A DNA stretch of 64,000 bases. Origin: Rhizophagus irregularis (taxonomy: Eukaryota > Glomeromycota > Glomeromycetes > Glomerales > Glomeraceae). The translations under genes and the position numbers were made by a program. The DNA lies in the NCBI RefSeq assembly GCF_026210795.1, contig NC_089448.1, positions 2,046,001-2,110,000 of the forward strand. The letters run 5' to 3'. Positions 39,176-63,194 of the stretch are shown here, one piece after another (position 1 is the first letter of the stretch; each line of letters opens with the position of its first letter). The notes beneath the pieces are model-generated. The model had not been told where the DNA came from and searched no databases. It was given only the letters and a program-made list of their open reading frames with translations.

Positions 39176-40535
39176 ATAATTTCCTGATGACTTACCTGGA
39201 AAAATAGATGATGTGAATTCTAAAGAAGAGTTAGAGCGTCAACTTGTTTTATTTTTTGTTTCATGTAAGCAGCAAAATGGAGCTGAATATTCAGTACAAT
39301 CAATAAAATCAGCAAGATTTGCTATTGCACGACATATCAACACATATTCTAAAATTCGTCCACAAGAAATTACAAATAAAAATATATATTCTGAATTATA
39401 TAACGCAATTACTGGCAAGATCAAACTTTTAACTGATCAGGGATTAGGTGAAATACATGGTGCAGATGCTTTTACTCAAGATGAGATTAGGAAAATTATT
39501 AATCATCCCACAATGCAACCAGATTCACCAAAAGGACTTATACGACGCATATTTTGGCATAATGCTTTTGAATTAGCTCTTCGAGGTGGAGAGCATTATA
39601 ATCTAAAAATACAACAATTTAAAAAAAGAAAGGATGGTGGTATTGACGTTACATTTTATAGATCTAAGTGTAATCAGAGATCTTTAAGTGAATCTAATTC
39701 TAAAGCTGAAGTAATTTCAATACCTGCTGATAATGCTGTTATTCAAGATTATGAGCTTTATTTTAGTAAAAGACCACCAATTTGTGAAGATGCATTTTAC
39801 TTGCAACCTTGCAACAATAATGAAGGTAATTATTTATTATGTAGTAATTTATTATTTTTTTTACCTTTCTTTTAATTTCAAATAGTTGAGTTTACGGGTT
39901 ATTGGTTCAAATCTGCTCAAATGGGAGAAAAATTGGTAAAAGGACTTATGAAAGAAATTGCAACAATAACTGAAATCGATTGTGATAAAAGAAAGTTCAC
40001 AAATCATAGTGGACGAAAAACCTTTATTCAAATTTCAAAAAGTGAAGGAATTAGTGATAATGATGTGATGTCTGTGTCACGGCATAAAAATCCTCACTCT
40101 TTGGCTTATTATGAACGTCCTAAGTCTATATTGCAGCAAAATACATTATCGCAAATTAATTCTTTAATTTATAATGGTAAGAAAAGAATTGCACCTGTGG
40201 TTTTAATGTAAAAGTAATATACAATATATTTATTAATTTTCTTTTCATTAGATACATTATTGTCAAATGACAAAACTGCAAATTCTTTTTTTTCAACCTT
40301 AGAAATTTTTAATGGTAAGATTTAACTTATGAACTAATAATTCTTATGGTATAAAAAATTTAATTTTTTTTTAGAATCACGGTCACCACTTCAGCAGCTC
40401 AACTCAAACGATTTAAACGAATTAAATGATGATCAACAAAATCAAGAAATTAACGGAAATGATGAGACCATTAAAAAAATTCTCCATGGGAATGTTTTTC
40501 AGAATTGTAATATTACATTCAATGTGAATAAATGA

Positions 40536-41385: not shown

Positions 41386-44300
41386 ATGGAGCTAGCATCA
41401 TCAATAGATATTCCTTTTGCACAATTCATTCGGCTTATTAGAATTGTATCTGAAATTTTTTTAAATGTCACGGATTTATATAATAGGTCATCTCAGCATA
41501 ATAAAAATATTACCAAGATTTTGATGGAACGTATCTCTATAGCAAACGTCTCTGTTAATATTTTACAAGCGAGAAAAGATTTATTAAATACAACTTACTA
41601 TAAAAGCTTACAAAGATTAGTTCAAGTTCTTCAGGATATGAAAAAATTTATTGAAAATATAACACAATATAATATAATGCAAAGATATTTAGAAAAAAAA
41701 GTAGTTGAAAATGAATTTAAAGAATTATGTGAAAAATATGATAACAGTATTAATGTGTTAAACTTTCACTTATTGGTTAATTTTAAGTTTAATGCCCAAG
41801 AGGAAGATGACATAATTATTGGTGCTGTTGAGCTAGCAACGTCAGTTTCTAATATTTTTTCAAATTATACAGAATTATATAAGTCATCTCAGCATTATGA
41901 TTATATTACCAAGATTTTGAAACATATCTTTGTAGCAAACATCTCTGTTAATATTTTACAAGCGAAAAAGGATTTATTAACCTCAAATTATTATAAAAGT
42001 TTACAAGGATTGGATCAAGTTCTTCATAATATGATTAAATATATTGAAGAAATAAAGCAAAAGAATTTAAAGAATAAAATGATCAAAAAAAAATTCCCAG
42101 AATTATGTGAAGAATATGATAGTAGTATTAGTTTGTTAAATTTTAACTTATTGGTTGATTTAATGTTTAGCGACCAAGAGGAAAATTATGATACAATTTT
42201 TGATGCTGTTGAGCTAGCAACGTCAGTATCCGATATTTTTTCAAAATCTACAGAATCAAATGGATCAACTCAGCATAATAAAAACATTGCCAAGATTTTG
42301 ACGGAACGTGTATCTGCAGTAATTACCTCTGTTAATATTTTACAAGCGAGAGAGGAATCATTAACTTCGACGTACTATAAAGGTTTACAAAGGTTGATTC
42401 AAGTTCTTCATAGTATGAAAAAATTTATTGGAGAAATAGTGCAACATAGTAAAATGCAAATGTATTTAGTAGGAAATAAAAAGATCAAAAAAGAATTTAA
42501 AGATTTATGTGAAGAATATGATAGTAGTATTAATTTGTTAAATTTTAACTTATTGGTTGATTTTATGTCTAATTCCCAAGAAAATAAGATTGTGAAAAAA
42601 GATATAGCACAACTTATAAAATTTCTAGTTTTAGCAAAAAATACGAACTTGGTCAATGAGCAGGTCAACGAAATTGCAGTAGTTATGCAAATGGTGCAAA
42701 ACAATAAAAAAGGAAATATAAACCAAATTCAAAACAAAATTGATAATCTGCCTTCATTTCCATACGAAGATTATGAAGAAGCTTACGAAGAAATATGTAG
42801 TGATAAATTGAGAAAATATGTTCATGTAAAAACAGAAGAGGAATTTGCCTTTAAAGTTTTGGATCAAGATCATATTAATGATGTTAAAAATCTAGTCGCA
42901 CTTTTTATGAAACATAAAGTTTGTCAAAATATCATTAAATTTTATGGTCTTACTAGTAATGGAGTTAAAACTTATTTAATAACTGAATGGGCAGAAAATG
43001 GAAACTTGCGTAATTATATTCTTAACCGTGGACAGAATATTGAATTAAAATTGAAAATAAGAATCGCTTATGATATTGCTAAAGGTTTGAATTTCCTTGA
43101 TTCTGTCAAAGTAAGGATTGCATTTTTAATTTATTTCTTTATATATGTATATATATCGTTTTGAACTTTGAAATTTCCTTTCAACAGGTGATCCATCGAG
43201 ACATTAGATCTGAAAATATAGTAATTACACATCACGATATTGCCAAAATTACAAATTTTAAGTTTAGTAGAATATTTGATGAAGCTACTTGTAATATAGC
43301 CATAAACAAAGAATGCGTTCGGTATAGTGCTCCTGAAATGTTAAGAAGAGAAATGACAGAAGAACAGTACTATACTAAATATAATTCAAAATGTGAAGTT
43401 TATAGTTTTGGTATTCTCCTTTGGGAGATTGCAGAATGTAAGATTCCATACGAGAAATTTGAAGATATTTTGGAAATTACAAGAAAAGTAGTAGATGGTT
43501 ATCGAGAAAAATTTACATCTAGTAATGTTATTCCAGAAAAATATCAAAATCTTGTGAATAAATCTGTTGATCCAAACCCGGATTCACGACCTATATTCTC
43601 AATGATGTTAACAGATCTTCAGGATATTTATAAAAGTTACTCCAATTCTCTGAATAATAACAGATCTTCTCCCGTGCAAAAAACGACTCAAAGCACAATT
43701 GTAGCAGAAGAAGATTATGAAATTAACAGGGACTTAGGCTTATATTATGAAAATAGAGCTGGTACTGAAAAAGATGATGAAAAAAATGAGGTTAAAACAT
43801 TTGAATTGATTCTCAAAAATGCGGGATGTGATAAAGTCAATTTTATGTCTTATAAGGAATTAGAAAATATTGTGCCACTTGTCAAAGGAGGATTTGGAGA
43901 AATTATGAAAGCATTTTGGACTAAAAAAAAGAGTCATGTCATTTGTAAAAAATTAATTAGAACTACTGATTTAAAACATAATTTATTAGATGCATTTATT
44001 CATGAACTAAAAATACATTTGCGACTTGATTACTATAATGATAGAATTATACGTTGCCTAGGCATTAGCTTTGGTAATTGTTCTCCGTCATTTATGTTCA
44101 TTTTATCATTATAATCATTTTATTTATTATAATGAATTTTTCTTTTAGATAAAAATGCAAATGAATATCTTCTTATATTGCAATATGCTAATGATGGTGA
44201 TCTTCAAAACTATCTTCAAAAAAAATTTGGTAAATTGACTTGGGATGATAAGAAAAAATTAGCATTTCAGATTGCAGATGGTTTAAATTACCTACATAAT

Positions 44301-46695
44301 GAAGATGTTTTACATAGGGATCTAGTAAGTACAATTTTTCATTATTAATAAATATAATGTAATTTACTAATAATATAATTAATAATATTATTATTTTTAT
44401 CTTTAGCATTCCAAAAATATTGTTATTCATGATGGTAATGCTAAAATTACAGATTTTGGTATTTCAAAAATTCAAAATAGTCAAAAATCAACAGCTTATA
44501 TTGGTAATTTTGGTATTATTGCTTATATGGAGCCAAAACGTATTCTTGATAGAAACTTTCCATATACCAAATCTTCAGATATTTATAGTTTTGGTGTATT
44601 GATGTGGGAAATTTCAAGTGGATGTCCTCCATTTAAAAGTAGTGATAATATAATTACACTTGGTCTTGCCATTAATAGTGGTACTCGTGAAACTACAATT
44701 TCTGGTACTCCCGAGGAATATAAAGAACTTTATAAAAAATGCTGGAAACAAGAACCTGAACAAAGACCAGCTATTAGTGAAGTATTGGGTGGACTTGAAA
44801 GAATGGGTATGTAAAATATATTTATTTTATTAAGCTACATTAATTATTAATTATATGACTGTTACATAGTAAAATCTTCGGATAATAATACAATTCCGAC
44901 ATCAAAAATGGAGGCTAATCGTGATGATGATTATCTACGCAGTAAGTTTATTAATTAATTTAGTAATAATCAAATATCATTATTTTAAAATAACAGCTAA
45001 TTATGGTTTTTAAATCTAGTCGATTCTTAATTAACGAATAATTGTATTTTACAAATTAATAAATTAAAATTTTTAAATATGCTATAACCAAAATTGATAC
45101 ATTCAGTATATTAAATTTTATATTATCAATATTTTTAGGAAATTATTTATATTGAGGTATATTTATAAACTGAATATCGGTTATAGATTAATCTCATTTT
45201 TCTTTTGCAAGTTAATCATGTGTATAAAAGCGTCCCATATACATTATTATAACCTCCTTTAGGATAAGTCAATAAGGTGTTTTCACTGTAATAAATTTAA
45301 TTTTTTGTCGTCCCGAGATTTTATAAATACTGTAAATTTAGATACTTGGTTGAGGACCCGAACAATACTAATATAGGTAGGAGCTGAAGATGCGTCGTCA
45401 TCTTAGTAGCTATCAATATGTTAGAATTTGGGAATGCGTACAATCATCAAAAAATTTTGATAAGGTTAGAATTTGATTTTGCGTAATTTTGATTGGATTT
45501 TAGGATGGTAAGATGTTGGTTTTGCCTATTTTTTGGTACATTTTGGAAATAAGTTTCCTTTTTTTGTAATAATTTTACATTTTTAATTTTATTTAACGAT
45601 CATCTTAAAATAACTTTTTTTTTTTCGAAAAAAAATATTTTCTGTATTGCATACATAATGTTTTATTGGAAATATGGTAAAGAGTGATTGGCTAAACATA
45701 AATACGTTACTCATATTATTAATGCAAAAAAGTAGCATGTATATGTGGGAAAGAAATCAAATTAAACCGTAGATATGAAGAAGATTATTTAAATAGACAT
45801 GTAGTATGTTAAGGATGTAAAGCAGACAAAGACAGAGAACAATTTGATACAACTAATAAAAGAGCCAATTAAAATTTTAAAAACTGACTTGAAGTTAGAG
45901 GATTAGAATGCGTATTTTGTAAAAATTTCAGGGGTTAGGAGCTATAAATGCGTACTGATCATAGTCAAAAGTGCTGCGTACAGCTAATAGTAAAATTTTT
46001 TTTCTGGACCTTAGTATTGTTCGGGGTCCTCTTGGTTGTCGGTATATTAATTTTAGATCTCATTATTGAAAAAGGTTTTGTAAGATGTATCATGATTCAA
46101 CCGTAACTTTTTTTCCCGGGTTTACCCTATCCGGTTATGTCATCAGATTTTTGCCAAAATGCTGACCGTAATTTCGGCAGAAATAATGTGATGCTAATAT
46201 TCGGTCCGAAATTATTGAAATTAGAGCATAAATTAATTTGAGTCGTATAATATGCTGCGTCAAATATATTACGAATTATTAGCTGTAAGCATCTCTTACA
46301 GGGCTGAAATTATAATAAAATTATCAAAATTATTCGGCCTATTCAAATTTTTTTTTTGAAATTCTTTAATGAAACATTTATTGAAATTTTCTTTATTTTG
46401 TATATTCGGAAAGGTCCTAGACAGCTAGACTATTGAAAAAAAAGTAATGCAAAACTTTCAGTTTTTTTTTAACAAAAGTAATGTACTGTACTAAATGTTT
46501 CTTTTTTTTTAAATTTATAGGTTTTGGCCAGAATCAGCTCGAACCATTGGATGGTAATATTTCTTTATAATACTACAAAAAAAAAAGCGTTTTTAATAAT
46601 TTTTTTCCCTTTTTTTGTAGAAATCCATTAAAGTTACTAATATTTAAGAATTTGCACATTTTTTTTTAGATCATATTGACAACATCCCGGTGTGA
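41386..46695 (+). CDS. Triple helical-bundle - pseudokinase - kinase protein, 1,105 aa, 7 exons
   Basis: Exons 41386-43110, 43188-44073, 44149-44324, 44407-44806, 44870-44941, 46521-46553, 46670-46695; frame kept, TGA at 46693. First in-frame ATG at 41386; a tttggcag acceptor at 41367-41368 suggests a missing 5' exon. Residues about 20-400 hold three tandem helical domains (period about 127 residues; each with SVNILQAR/AK, YYK(S/G)LQ, FKxLCExYDxS, LLNFNLLV) resembling the MLKL/HeLo-like four-helix bundle. Residues about 458-725: kinase fold without glycine loop, FAFKVL lysine, HRDIRSEN, but TNF in place of DFG, a pseudokinase. Residues about 790-1060: second kinase with LVKGGFGE loop, VICKKL, HRDLHSKN, ITDFGIS, so apparently active, TKL type. 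Intron 5 (1.58 kb) holds a transposon. The last two small exons rest on splice signals only. Confidence 0.8.
45352..46031. mobile_element. Inverted-repeat transposon, 680 bp, in a kinase-gene intron
   Basis: The left end GAGGACCCGAACAATACTAA is matched by the inverse of the right end, GAGGACCCCGAACAATACTA. It is flanked by perfect 6-bp duplications ttggtt (45346-45351 and 46032-46037). Inside, gttaggagctRWARatgcgt-like motifs repeat near both ends and gttagaatttg...gcgta in the middle. Non-coding, so non-autonomous. Confidence 0.8.
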
Positions 46696-48957: not shown

Positions 48958-51194
48958 ATGGAAAAAACAGCTGTTTTGGAAACAACCGTTGCCGTAATTA
49001 GTCACTCCGATACAATTACTATTGATACCGTTGAACTAATAATTCCTCCTTCTCAGTTTATTTCGCTCATCAAAGATGTATCTAATATTTTGTCAAAAGT
49101 TATAGAATTGTATAGGTCAGCTCAGCATAATAAAAATATTACCAGGATTTTGGTGGAACGTATTTCTGTTGCAAGTGCCTCTATTAATGTTTTACATGCA
49201 AGAGATGATTTATTAACTTCAACTTATTATAAAATTTTACAAAGATTGGTTCAAGTTCTTCATAATATGAAAGAATATATTGAAGAAATAACACAATATA
49301 ATACAGTACAAAAGTTTTTAGGAACTGAAATGATTGAAAAAAAATTTAAAGAATTGTGTAAAGAATATGATAGCTGTATTATTTTGTTAAATTCTAATTT
49401 ATCAGTCAATTTTAATTTTAATACTGAACAAGAAGATAAAATTATAAAGGAAGATATAGTACAACTTTCCAAATTTCAAAAAGTTTTAGCAGAATGTATA
49501 AACGATGTGAAACAAAAAGTCACTCACACAAATGATCAGATGAACTTAATCGTTGAGCGAGTCAGTGAAATGGCAATAACTATGCAAAGTATGCAAAGTA
49601 ACATGAAAAGTATGACGTACACAGAAGACAACAAAATTCAAAAAAGAATCGATAATATCTTTCGTATATCTTCACTACCATTTGAAGATTATGAAGAAGC
49701 TGACGAAGAAGGACGTGGTTATAAAATTTATAAATTGAGAAAATACGTTCATATAAAAACTAAAGATGAATTTGCCTTTAAAGTTCTGGACCCATCTCAT
49801 ATTAATGAAGTTAAAAATCAAGTTACAATTCTTATGAAACTTAAAGATTGTCAAAATATCATTAATTTCTATGGTCTTACTAGTAATGGATTAGAAACTT
49901 ATTTAGTAACTGAATGGGCAGAAAAAGGAAACTTACGTGAATATATTCTTGACCATGAACAAAATATTGACTTAAAATTGAAATTAAAACTTGCCTATGA
50001 TATTGCTAAAGGTTTGAATTTCCTGAATTCTGTCAAGGTAAGAATTGCATTTGTAATTTAATTTTTTCATGTCAAATTTTCGAACTTTAAAGTATTAACA
50101 AGTATAAATGTTATCTTTTAATAGATAGTTCATCAGGATATTAGATCCGTAAACATCGTAATTACAGATCACGATGTCGCTAAAATTACAAATTTTAAAT
50201 ATAGTAGAAAATTTGATGAAGCTAAACATAATTTAGTTCAAAATGAAGACTATGTTCGATATAATGCTCCCGAAATGTTAAGAAGAAGAACTGCGGGAGA
50301 TTATTCTATCAAGTATGATACCAAATGTGAAGTTTATAGTTTTGGTATTATCCTTTGGGAGATTGCTGAACGTAAGGTTCCGTACGATCAGTTCGTAGAT
50401 TTTATTGCAATTGCGAAAATAGTAATGGGTGGGTATCGAGAAAAATTTACATCTGGTACCGATATTCCGAAGAAATATCAAGAACTTGTAAATAAATCTG
50501 TCGATCCAAATCCAGGTTATCGACCTATATTCTCAAAGGTGTTAACAGATCTTCAGGATATCTTTAGAAGTCTTGAAACACCCACAAATTATCCCAATTC
50601 TTTGAATAGTAACATAACTCCTCCCGTACAAAAAATGACTCAAGGTACAATTGCAGCGATAGAAGATTGTGCAATTAATTTGGATTTATTTAACACGGAT
50701 TGGACGGATTGGAATTCATTTGATTATATGACGCTTGATAAAGCAATTGAATTTCATAAAAAAGACAGCAGCAAATATTATATAAGTGTTTTGATACTTA
50801 TGCTGAAATTGGTAATCCAAAAGCAAAATATTGGAAAGCTTATTATATTTCAAAAGGTTGGTCTAATCTTGAATGTCCTGATAATGAAAAACATAAAGTG
50901 TCTGTTCAATTATTCAAAGAAGCTGCTAGTTATGGTGATGAGTTTCCTGATGCTCAACTCCGTTATGCATTAATGGTTATGCAAGGAAAAGGTGTCAAAC
51001 AAGATAAAGAAGAAGCGATTAAATATTTTCTTAAAGCTGCTAAAAATGGACATCTCGTAGCTATGTTTGACACTGCCACCTATTACTACTCTAAAGACGA
51101 AAATGAATTAGGGAATTATTATATGATAAGTGCTGCTAATAAAGGCTATGAACAAGCAATTAATTATTGCAAAAAGAAAAATATTTCTTATTAA
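48958..51194 (+). pseudogene. Helical-bundle - pseudokinase - Sel1 gene, frameshifted
   Basis: Exon 48958-50037, intron, exon 50125 onward. One MLKL/HeLo-like helical domain (residues about 25-160: SAQHNKNITRILVERIS, DDLLTSTYYKILQRL). Pseudokinase: FAFKVLD lysine, HQD in place of HRD (VHQDIRSVN), TNFKYS in place of DFG, PEMLRRR. After KAIEFHKKDS at about 50770 the reading frame breaks: against the intact paralogue, 10 bases are missing. The Sel1 part (50790-51194: DAQLRYALMVMQGKGVKQDK, AIKYFLKAAKNGH, NKGYEQAINYCKK) continues in the +2 frame. The in-frame product would end at 50973 without Sel1 repeats. It may be a pseudogene or a truncated two-domain protein; the otherwise clean sequence says the break is recent. 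Confidence 0.75.
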
Positions 51195-60911: not shown

Positions 60912-63194
60912 ATGGCAAAAAAAACTGATTTGGCGATTGAAGCAACTACTGCTGTAATTGATTACACTGACACAATCATTAGTTCTGTTGAGCTAACAAC
61001 ATCAGTAGTTATTCCTCTTTCACAATTCATTCCGCTCATTAGAGATGTATTTGAAATTTTTTCGAAAGTTACGGATTTATATAGGTCAGCTCAGCATAAT
61101 AAAAATATTACCATGATTTTAATGCAACGTATCTCTACAGCAAACATCTCTGTTAATATTTTACAAGCAAGAGAAGATTTATTAACTTCGATTTATTATA
61201 AAAGTTTACAAAGATTGGTTCAAGTTCTTCATAATATGATTAAATTCATTGAAGATATAACACAATATAATACGGTGCAAAAGTTTTTAGGAGCTAAAAA
61301 GATTGAAAATGGATTTAAAGAATTATGTAAAGAATATGATAGCAGTATGACTTTGTTAAATTTTAACCTATTGGTCAATTTTAATACTGAAAATGAAGAT
61401 ATTAACCTATTGGTCAATTTTAATACTGAAAATGAAGATAAAATTGTGAAAGAAGATGTAGAACAACTTGTAAAATTTCAAGAAGCTTTAGTAGAAAGTA
61501 TGAACGATGTGAAACAAAATGTCTTTCACACAAATGATCAGATGAACTCAGTCGTTGAACGAATCAGTGAAATGGCAATAACTATGCATAATATGCAAAG
61601 TATGATGGGCAGTAAAAAAGAAGATGCAGATCAAATTCAAAACAAAATCGATATCATCTTTCGTACTGATAAACTTCCATTCAAAGATTATGAAGAAGCT
61701 GACGAAATTAGTATACGTGGTGAAAGATTGAGAAAATACATTCAAGTAAAAACTAAAGAAGAATTTGCTTTCAAGGTTGTAGATCAATATCATATTAATA
61801 AAGTTAAAAATCAAGTCACAATTCTTATGAAACTTAAGGATTGCCAAAATATCATTAATTTCTATGGTCTTACTAGTGATGGATTTAAAACTTATTTAGT
61901 AACTGAATGGGCAGAAAAAGGAAGCTTACGTGAATATATTCTTAACCATGAACAAAACATTGACTTAAAATTGAAAATAAAAATTGCTTATGATATTGCT
62001 AAAGGTTTGAATTTCCTTAATTCTGTCAAGGTAAAAATCGCATTTGTAATTTAATTTTTTCATTTCAAATTTTCGAACTTTAAAGTATTAACAAGCATAA
62101 ATGTTAACTTTTAATAGATGGTTCATCGGGATATTAAATCTGAAAATATATTAATTACACATCATGATATTGCTAAAATTACAAATTTTAGTAGAAGATT
62201 TGATGATGATGCTGGTAATATTGAGATATCTAAAGAATATTTTCGATATAATGCTCCCGAAATTTTAAGAAGAGGATTTACAGGAGAAAAGGAGAAAAAA
62301 GACAAGTATTCTAAGTATGATACCAAATGTGAAGTTTATAGTTTTGGTATTCTCCTTTGGGAGATTGCTGAACGTAAAATTCCATACGAGCAATTCAAAG
62401 ATTTTATTGAAGTTATAAGAAAAGTAGTAGGTGGGTATCGGGAAAAATTTAGAGCTGGTACTGATATTCCGAAGAAATATCAAGATCTTGTAAATAAATC
62501 TGTTGATTCAAATCCGGGTTCTCGACCTATATTCTCAAGGATGTTAACAGATCTTCAGGATATTTTCAGAAATCTTGAAGCACCCACAAGTCGTCCCATT
62601 AGTAACATAGCTCCTCCTGTACGAAAAATGACTCAAAGTACAATAGAAGCGATAGAAGATTATGCAATTAATTTGGATTCAGATTCATTTAACACGGTTT
62701 GGGATTCATTTGATTATATGACGCTTAATAAAGCAATTGAACTTCATAAAACCGACAGCAAGAAGGATAAGAAAATATTATATAAATGTTTTGATACTTA
62801 TGCTGAAATGGATAATCCAAAAGCAAAATATTGGAAAGCTTATTATATTTCAAAAGGTTGGTCTAACCTTGAATGTTCTGAAAAGGAAAAACATAAATTG
62901 TCTGTTCAATTATTTAAAGCAGCTGCTGATTATGGTGAAAAGTTTCCTGATGCTCAACTCCGTTATGCATTAATGGTTATGCAAGGCAAAGGTGTCAAAC
63001 CAGATAAAGATGAAGCGATTAAATATTTTCTTAAAGCTGCTAAAAATGGACATTTCGTAGCTATGTTTAACATTGCCACTTATTACTACTCTATACACGA
63101 ATATGAATTAGGGAATTATTATATGATAAGTTCTGCTAATAAGGGCTTCGAACAAGCAATTAACTATTGTAAAAAGAAAAATATTTCTTATTAA
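60912..63194 (+). CDS. Helical-bundle - pseudokinase - Sel1 repeat protein, 731 aa, 2 exons
   Basis: Exons 60912-62030 and 62118-63194, GT-AG intron, frame intact to TAA at 63192. Residues about 30-175: one MLKL/HeLo-like helical domain (PLSQFIPLIRDVFEIFSK, SVNILQAREDLL, YYKSLQRLVQVL, FKELCKEYDSS). A 13-residue unit NLLVNFNTENED is duplicated in tandem. Residues about 255-560: kinase fold lacking a glycine loop, FAFKVVD lysine kept, VHRDIKSEN kept, but TNF in place of DFG, so a pseudokinase. Then the linker PPVRKMTQSTIEAIEDYAIN. Residues about 600-725: Sel1-type repeats (DAQLRYALMVMQGKGVKPDK, EAIKYFLKAAKNGH), which usually scaffold protein complexes. This is the intact reference for the frameshifted paralogue. 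A role as pseudokinase-controlled membrane effector is inferred from MLKL. Confidence 0.85.

Follow-up and report, generated by a model that had tools for sequence, protein, structure and literature searches.

An MLKL-type bundle array, a pseudokinase and an active-looking kinase predicted in one chain of Rhizophagus irregularis

The gene analyzed here, W_A, lies on the forward strand of a 64,000-nucleotide (nt) stretch of Rhizophagus irregularis DNA (the window, positions 2046001-2110000 of contig C20), which also holds two of its paralogs, W_B and W_C. The predicted anatomy of W_A, with an array of MLKL-type helical bundles, a brace-like linker, a pseudokinase and a kinase in one reading frame, is held with high confidence. 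The broader interpretation, that W_A belongs, as a recombinant, to a large family of MLKL architecture in this species and, we infer, works as a kinase-gated membrane or death switch, is about evenly balanced between right and wrong. An earlier reading of the same DNA (the original prediction) had placed three tandem helical domains, a pseudokinase and an active-looking kinase over this span and had likened the chain to RIPK, MLKL and JAK proteins. The span itself was recovered exactly, the six-exon gene model stopping at position 46695.

Three families of tandem repeats were found in the DNA of W_A, with units of 218 nt (three copies), 135 nt (three copies) and 114 nt (two copies), a start-to-start spacing of 378-402 nt and a DNA identity of 69-82% over the repeat units. 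In the protein they correspond to helical repeats of about 130 amino acids (aa) each at residues ~1-140, 147-270 and 274-400, which bears out the three helical domains proposed earlier. The Pfam family MLKL_N (PF22215) matched the whole chain at 36.4 bits, the curated cut-off being 27. In the genome searched (146,748,485 bases on 32 contigs) this family gave 71 matches at E <= 0.001, two of them in W_A, and it gave none in 14 control genomes, of which the nine that are named are prokaryotes. A profile built from 55 bundles of the same genome (five from the window and 50 from other loci, excluding matches shorter than 300 nt or below 50 bits, and compiled before loci L041-L047 were added) was run against all PDB sequences. 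MLKL took ranks 1-7 with E-values from 1.3e-4 to 0.014, and the next protein was LINE-1 ORF1p (E 0.026). The helical repeats are assigned on this sequence evidence to the MLKL N-terminal four-helix family, in agreement with the grouping first proposed from motifs. Structure prediction was consistent with the assignment. An AlphaFold2 model of bundle 3 and the following linker, computed from five window sequences, had a predicted local distance difference test score (pLDDT) of 60.8 and contained five bundle helices and three helices after them, the latter mostly below 50. With the bundle 3 model, Foldseek placed MLKL executioner domains at ranks 1-4 with non-significant E-values (0.44-1.2), and a model of the whole of exon 1 (pLDDT 43) was not used. 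A helix-1 head of about 14 residues is present in bundle 1 and in both single-bundle window paralogs and is absent from bundles 2 and 3. Because the full first helix is kept in bundle 1 only, the role of the other two is probably assembly and not membrane insertion.

Both kinase domains of W_A matched PF07714. In the first domain the position of the alphaC Glu is occupied by Leu (by Gln in many paralogs, as judged by eye), and alignment of its DFG region, AKITNFKFS, with that of the second domain, AKITDFGIS, gives N-F-K for DFG. The first domain is classified from these motifs as a pseudokinase, as had been proposed; the TNF motif named at that time was off by one residue and is rejected in favor of NFK. 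Its best 60 of 2139 matches among solved structures were tyrosine kinases and MAP3Ks, with BMX and BTK leading. The second domain appears to be a complete, active-looking kinase of the tyrosine kinase-like (TKL) type: it keeps the glycine loop, the Lys, the alphaC Glu (FIHE), HRD (HRDLHSKN) and DFG, and the intact glycine loop (GGFGEI), HRD and DFG noted earlier are all present in the spliced sequence. The best 60 solved matches listed for this domain included an EGFR-labelled entry, the tyrosine kinase 7t6f (presumably JAK1), MLT/MAP3K20, RIPK1 and other tyrosine kinase (TK) and TKL members. Because the kinase domains match animal TK and TKL kinases generically, any kinship to RIPK or JAK is to be taken as analogy and not as demonstrated descent. 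Of the likeness to RIPK-MLKL and JAK proteins first suggested, what survives is the MLKL-type bundle, the pseudokinase and the active-looking kinase; the brace-like linker is a further likeness to MLKL. A single simple RHIM-like tetrad pattern, the only one used, had no match in a 1086-residue model of W_A.

The pseudokinase and the kinase are joined at the DNA level. Exon 1 encodes the bundles, the brace and the pseudokinase N-lobe, and exon 2, open over 886 nt, runs from the pseudokinase C-lobe through a linker to the N-lobe of the second kinase. Because this exon is uninterrupted, the proposal that 41386-43640 and 43800-44806 belong to different genes is refuted at that level, and the placing of both domains in one chain by the original prediction is upheld there.

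The linker also points to the origin of the gene. Residues 701-758 of W_A match the window paralogs at 58-63%. From residue 757 to 1062 the match is to L048, in which a kinase accompanies a long array of Sel1 repeats; this gene is encoded ~144 kb upstream of W_A, on the same strand of the same contig, and its exons show 59, 78 and 82% identity. The first donor-type residues, LGLYYENRAGTEKDD, resemble an L048 Sel1 repeat, LGLCYENGIGTEKDD. The 23-residue junction scored 64 against the L048 array, the maximum in 2000 shuffles being 51, and an 18-residue gap in the alignment with L048 separates this Sel1 remnant from the kinase leader. Pfam confirms Sel1 in L048 and in the tails of W_B and W_C; at the junction itself a Pfam-level Sel1 was rejected, as no family was found in 43611-43790, and the remnant is called there from the pairwise and shuffle comparisons alone. 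Since a paralog match precedes and an L048 match follows the breakpoint at residues 757-758, with a Sel1 remnant at the joint, W_A is best read as a bundle-pseudokinase gene that gained the end of a Sel1-array kinase gene. Sel1, which occurs in both parent types, was, we infer, the likely meeting point of the fusion.

All introns of W_A are GT-AG, and by translation and splice-site inspection the reading frame closes with the stop codon, leaving 1081 codons open and the splice sites and kinase motifs intact (Table 1). Protein coordinates and the Pfam scan were taken from earlier models of 1086 and 1062 residues, which differ only in the tail. The tail after 44806 is the weakest part of the predicted gene: the last two exons are short and rely on a short resemblance, noted by eye, to L049 and L050, two close relatives that read on past the kinase. 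The kinase exon of L049/L050 continues ERMGFGNN, and W_A splices ERM-GFGQN. Exons 4 and 5 are separated by a 1.7-kb intron (window 44807-46520), where L049/L050 read straight through. It holds a perfect 15-nt inverted repeat, at 45357-45371 and 46011-46025, and could be an inserted element; no further copy of its first 333 nt was found in the genome. An additional exon at 44870-44941, in frame and possible, was omitted as the less simple reading, and an end at 44814 was dropped, as similarity to L049/L050 extends the model beyond the kinase to 46695. Upstream of the gene, an open frame was seen at 39876-40211, which may be a fragment of a tyrosine recombinase.

Table 1 Features of W_A, its window paralogs and two related loci (window positions unless a contig is named).
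Feature	Position	Strand	Basis or remark
Whole gene W_A, six exons	41386-43110, 43188-44073, 44149-44324, 44407-44806, 46521-46553, 46670-46695	+	1081 aa
Bundle 1, MLKL_N type, full helix-1 head IPFAQFIRLI	41386..41805	+	PF22215, 28.4 bits (cut-off 27); repeat
Bundle 2, without helix-1 head	41824..42195	+	Aligned repeat of bundle 1; no MLKL_N match of its own
Bundle 3, without helix-1 head	42205..42585	+	PF22215, 27.1 bits (cut-off 27)
Brace-like helical linker, bundle 3 to pseudokinase	42586..42750	+	Alignment; helices predicted, pLDDT mostly <50
Pseudokinase N-lobe: no glycine loop, VAIK Lys kept, alphaC Glu replaced	42751..43110	+	PF07714, 50.1 bits; motifs
Pseudokinase C-lobe: HRDIRSEN, NFK for DFG, APE kept	43188..43640	+	Motif alignment
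Fusion joint	43641..43793	+	Paralog-type tail to residue 757-758 (~43731-43736), then Sel1 remnant LGLYYENRAGTEKDD
Kinase leader and N-lobe: GGFGEI, VICK, FIHE	43794..44073	+	Same open exon as pseudokinase C-lobe; L048-like in protein and DNA
Kinase middle and C-lobe: HRDL-HSKN, DFG, EPK	44149..44806, intron 44325-44406	+	PF07714; C-lobe exon 82% identical to L048
W_B: bundle-brace-pseudokinase(NFK)-Sel1	48958..51191	+	Sel1 part and pseudokinase exon in different frames
W_C: bundle-brace-pseudokinase(NF)-Sel1	60912..63191	+	One frame holds pseudokinase and Sel1
L004: four bundles, pseudokinase (NFQ, degraded HRD, HQN), DFG/APE kinase	contig C1: 396800-403500	minus	
L041: three bundles, then at least three kinase N-lobes in tandem	contig C1: 5244000-5248300		All on one strand

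The family was surveyed at 50 loci, comprising 47 from hit lists (L001-L047) and the three window genes, a non-random set smaller than the 71 MLKL_N matches, in which Sel1 was detected by similarity to three family tails. The bundle of L015, matched by Pfam and at 30 bits, was missed by the queries of this comparison. The commonest layout is bundle-brace-pseudokinase-Sel1. At 44 of the 50 loci the DFG Asp of the first kinase behind the bundle is replaced by Asn, and at one (L027) by Lys; four loci have DFG and no pseudokinase there (L032, L037, L041, L042), and L031 has no kinase directly behind its bundle. Sel1 repeats follow the bundle at 40 loci, L014 having neither Sel1 nor a DFG kinase in the fetched stretch. 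A DFG kinase stands behind the bundle at nine loci, in five of these behind a pseudokinase. W_B and W_C share the common layout with a longer brace-like linker than that of W_A, and the frame change in W_B (window 50125-51191) could reflect a small intron, a frameshift or an error of assembly.

Tandem bundles with no kinase between them were found at six loci, numbering four in L004, three each in W_A, L032 and L041, and two each in L037 and L042, those of L042 lying in two frames. A DFG kinase ends all six of these loci and three of the other 44 (L010, L018, L044). Because the sample is non-random and four of the six fall in one kinase clade, this is an association and not a test. A pseudokinase C-lobe and a kinase N-lobe share one open frame in both W_A and L004, and L004 together with further combined layouts excludes W_A as a unique gene. 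At L010, L018 and L044 a DFG kinase follows a pseudokinase on the same strand; as joining the two needs inferred splicing, these loci are candidates. The kinase C-lobes of L042 and L044 are nearly identical, L042 having two bundles and no pseudokinase seen and L044 a bundle and a pseudokinase, a contrast that amounts to a module gained or lost between recent copies. In the second kinase of L041 the glycine loop is broken and the DFG region carries an insertion; the motif HRN is present as well. Two further loci, L051 and L052, hold tandems of a degenerate and a DFG kinase (DLG in L052) with no bundle in the fetched stretch, which suggests that tandem kinases are a wider theme in R. irregularis. 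Alternating bundle-pseudokinase modules with Sel1 at the end were observed at L007, L008, L020 and L006, in L006 with Sel1 also between modules; the matched stretches in L007 and L008 are separated by ~60-240 nt, and these loci are possibly single multi-module genes.

A kinase tree was built from C-lobes only. Each of its 56 rows has a DFG triplet that can be read and a length of 95 aa or more, shorter C-lobes being dropped; the tree carries a long-branch warning. All 37 pseudokinase rows fell on one side of a branch (support 99/98). The W_A kinase formed a clade with L048-L050 (100/99), within which the W_A-L048 pair alone reached 85/49. The L004 kinase stood apart, L010 and L018 made up one clade and L032, L037, L041, L042 and L044 another; these two clades were joined at 99/89. 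Bundle-linked kinases thus appear in at least three places of the tree. With the initial labels, its starred branches require the label 'kinase behind a bundle' to change at least four times. The number falls to three if L019, L031, L024 and L029 are left unlabelled, these 'no bundle' rows being near the 5' edge of the fetched stretch with their upstream sequence outside it, or if L019 and L031 are counted as bundle-linked; such counts do not separate gains from losses. The ratio of nonsynonymous to synonymous substitution rates (dN/dS) was 0.23-0.51 for the W_A pseudokinase against paralogs (nine comparisons, two exons) and 0.43-0.49 for its kinase against L048-L050.

A mechanism can be proposed by analogy with MLKL. 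The bundle array would be held in check by the pseudokinase via the brace until a trigger, either crowding or a ligand, switches on the fused kinase. This kinase would phosphorylate the pseudokinase or the brace, in cis or in a neighboring chain, and the released array would oligomerize and disturb a membrane, with compartment death or defense signaling as the outcome. Such pseudokinase restraint with kinase-driven release falls a little short of an even chance. A more far-reaching version would make W_A a single-chain necrosome, its fused kinase phosphorylating the MLKL-type pseudokinase of its own protein and freeing the bundle array, and would have chains of this kind built several times in arbuscular mycorrhizal fungi, with different kinases, as sensors and executioners of a self/non-self or antiparasite system; it is considered rather unlikely.

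Several observations weigh against W_A as a death switch. The bundle structure is predicted at low confidence, and in VIA the bundle 3 model matched IncA (Z 11.0) above MLKL and HIP1R (both 10.4). For these reasons, and with Foldseek values that are non-significant, the sequence evidence for the bundles is the firm part and the fold is consistent with it. The kinase has EPK for APE and has His at HRD+2 of the catalytic loop, where Lys or Arg is usual; both features also occur in the close relatives L048-L050. The pseudokinase shows no sign of nearest kinship to that of MLKL, which is absent from its best 60 of 2139 solved-structure matches. The majority of loci have Sel1 repeats and no DFG kinase, so that the kinase fusion is not needed for the basic function of the family. 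The dN/dS of the W_A bundles is high (0.51-0.82 in twelve comparisons with W_B, W_C, L001 and L002), as either fast adaptive change or weak constraint could produce, and between other paralogs the pseudokinase value reaches 0.69, and 1.01 in one pair with a dS of 0.05.

Some of these features would suit a tandem kinase signaling protein of the plant tandem kinase protein (TKP) or JAK sort, in which the pseudokinase regulates the kinase and the bundles are dimerization, sensor or decoy modules that never act at a membrane. This explanation is possible, if on balance doubtful. It would accommodate the candidate tandems L051 and L052, with no bundle in the fetched stretch, the missing helix-1 head of bundles 2 and 3, and bundles that evolve faster than the pseudokinase, as sensors may; a paper on wheat Pm13 voices the same doubt about its MLKL_NTD (PMC10951266). 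It has to contend with the prevalence of bundles on pseudokinase-Sel1 proteins (Sel1 at 40 of the 50 loci) with no DFG kinase behind, so that the bundle did not arise as an appendage of the kinase, and with the fact that the best solved sequence relatives of the bundle are MLKL. W_A could also be a chimera of recent date, thrown up by a genome that is rich in kinases and shuffles fast; it would then have no function of its own under selection and be drifting to a pseudogene. The family does show many combinations (bundle-pseudokinase-bundle-pseudokinase, and bundles with several kinases), the 1.7-kb intron interrupts the tail, the dN/dS of the kinase is merely moderate, and decay may occur in the family because the Sel1 part of W_B is out of frame. 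With all 1081 codons open, splice sites and kinase motifs intact, a pseudokinase dN/dS of at most 0.51 in nine of nine comparisons, and the layout of bundle array, pseudokinase and kinase recurring at L004 with another kinase, this explanation is judged quite improbable. That two neighboring genes or an assembly error were read as one, conceivable insofar as bundle-pseudokinase genes and kinases are both common, is most improbable in view of the open exon that spans both lobes, the same junction type in one open frame at L004, and a linker composed of both parent families.

Parts that correspond to RIPK3 and MLKL of animals stand together in the predicted fungal chain, in which the joining can still be seen. 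Because both kinds of parent gene exist in the same genome, the value of the fusion is directly testable. The altered DFG Asp at 44 of the 50 loci offers a clean natural set for the role of a pseudokinase on an MLKL-type bundle. How somatic compatibility works at the molecular level in arbuscular mycorrhizal fungi is an unresolved question (PMC12712441), and in other fungi some het genes encode membrane-targeting domains related to MLKL (PMC12881547). W_A and its family are candidate genes for this question.

Animals encode the kinase, RIPK3, and the executioner, MLKL, as two separate proteins; the brace of MLKL acts as a relay, and GFE stands at its DFG position. W_A is like MLKL in its bundle family, in a linker at the position of the brace and in an altered-DFG pseudokinase directly after it; it is unlike MLKL in having three bundles, two kinase domains, a kept HRD, NFK, and an active-looking kinase in the chain. 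JAKs carry a pseudokinase and a kinase in tandem within a FERM-SH2-pseudokinase-tyrosine kinase plan, whereas the Pfam scan of W_A, read up to E 1, showed neither FERM nor SH2. To our knowledge, neither plant tandem kinase proteins nor JAKs have an MLKL-type bundle array, and their flanking domains are different. Kwon et al. 2019 reportedly described pseudokinase expansions and domain shuffling in fungi, and for this reason the abundance of pseudokinases in R. irregularis may already be published. During necroptosis in animals, the bundle of MLKL is unleashed when RIPK3 phosphorylates the pseudokinase (PMC12881547), and the MLKL brace has been named inhibitory (PMC8433767). Kinase-family domains also stand in tandem in plant tandem kinase-pseudokinase proteins (Yr15, PMC6170490), a likeness of layout only.

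The W_A family is most likely the Glomeromycotina MLKL family, TCDB 1.A.105, whose homologues are reported only in Glomeromycotina and with Sel1 (PMC8778642). W_A differs from it in the kinase that replaces the Sel1 tail; in the extracts of that paper no kinase fusion is described, and no analysis of the bundle or the pseudokinase was found. Fungal HeLo, HELL and basidiomycete BaMLKL proteins have an N-terminal MLKL-like bundle as W_A does (PMC9815663, PMC12881547), and some HELL domains occur in proteins with kinase or pseudokinase domains (PMC12881547). The described proteins of these groups are largely NLR-linked (PMC9815663, PMC12881547), whereas no NLR domain was found in the Pfam scan of W_A. 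Wheat Pm13 and other plant MLKL_NTD-kinase fusions likewise join an MLKL_NTD to a kinase with intact catalytic residues, but with one bundle, one kinase and no pseudokinase (PMC10951266), a layout to which L032, L037 and L042 are closer than W_A. In a literature search confined to open-licence papers, represented by extracts, no description was found of a bundle array, a pseudokinase and an active kinase in one chain. Glomeromycotina MLKL with Sel1 and the wheat MLKL_NTD-kinase fusions were known already; the combination of array, pseudokinase and kinase in one chain is what W_A would add to them.

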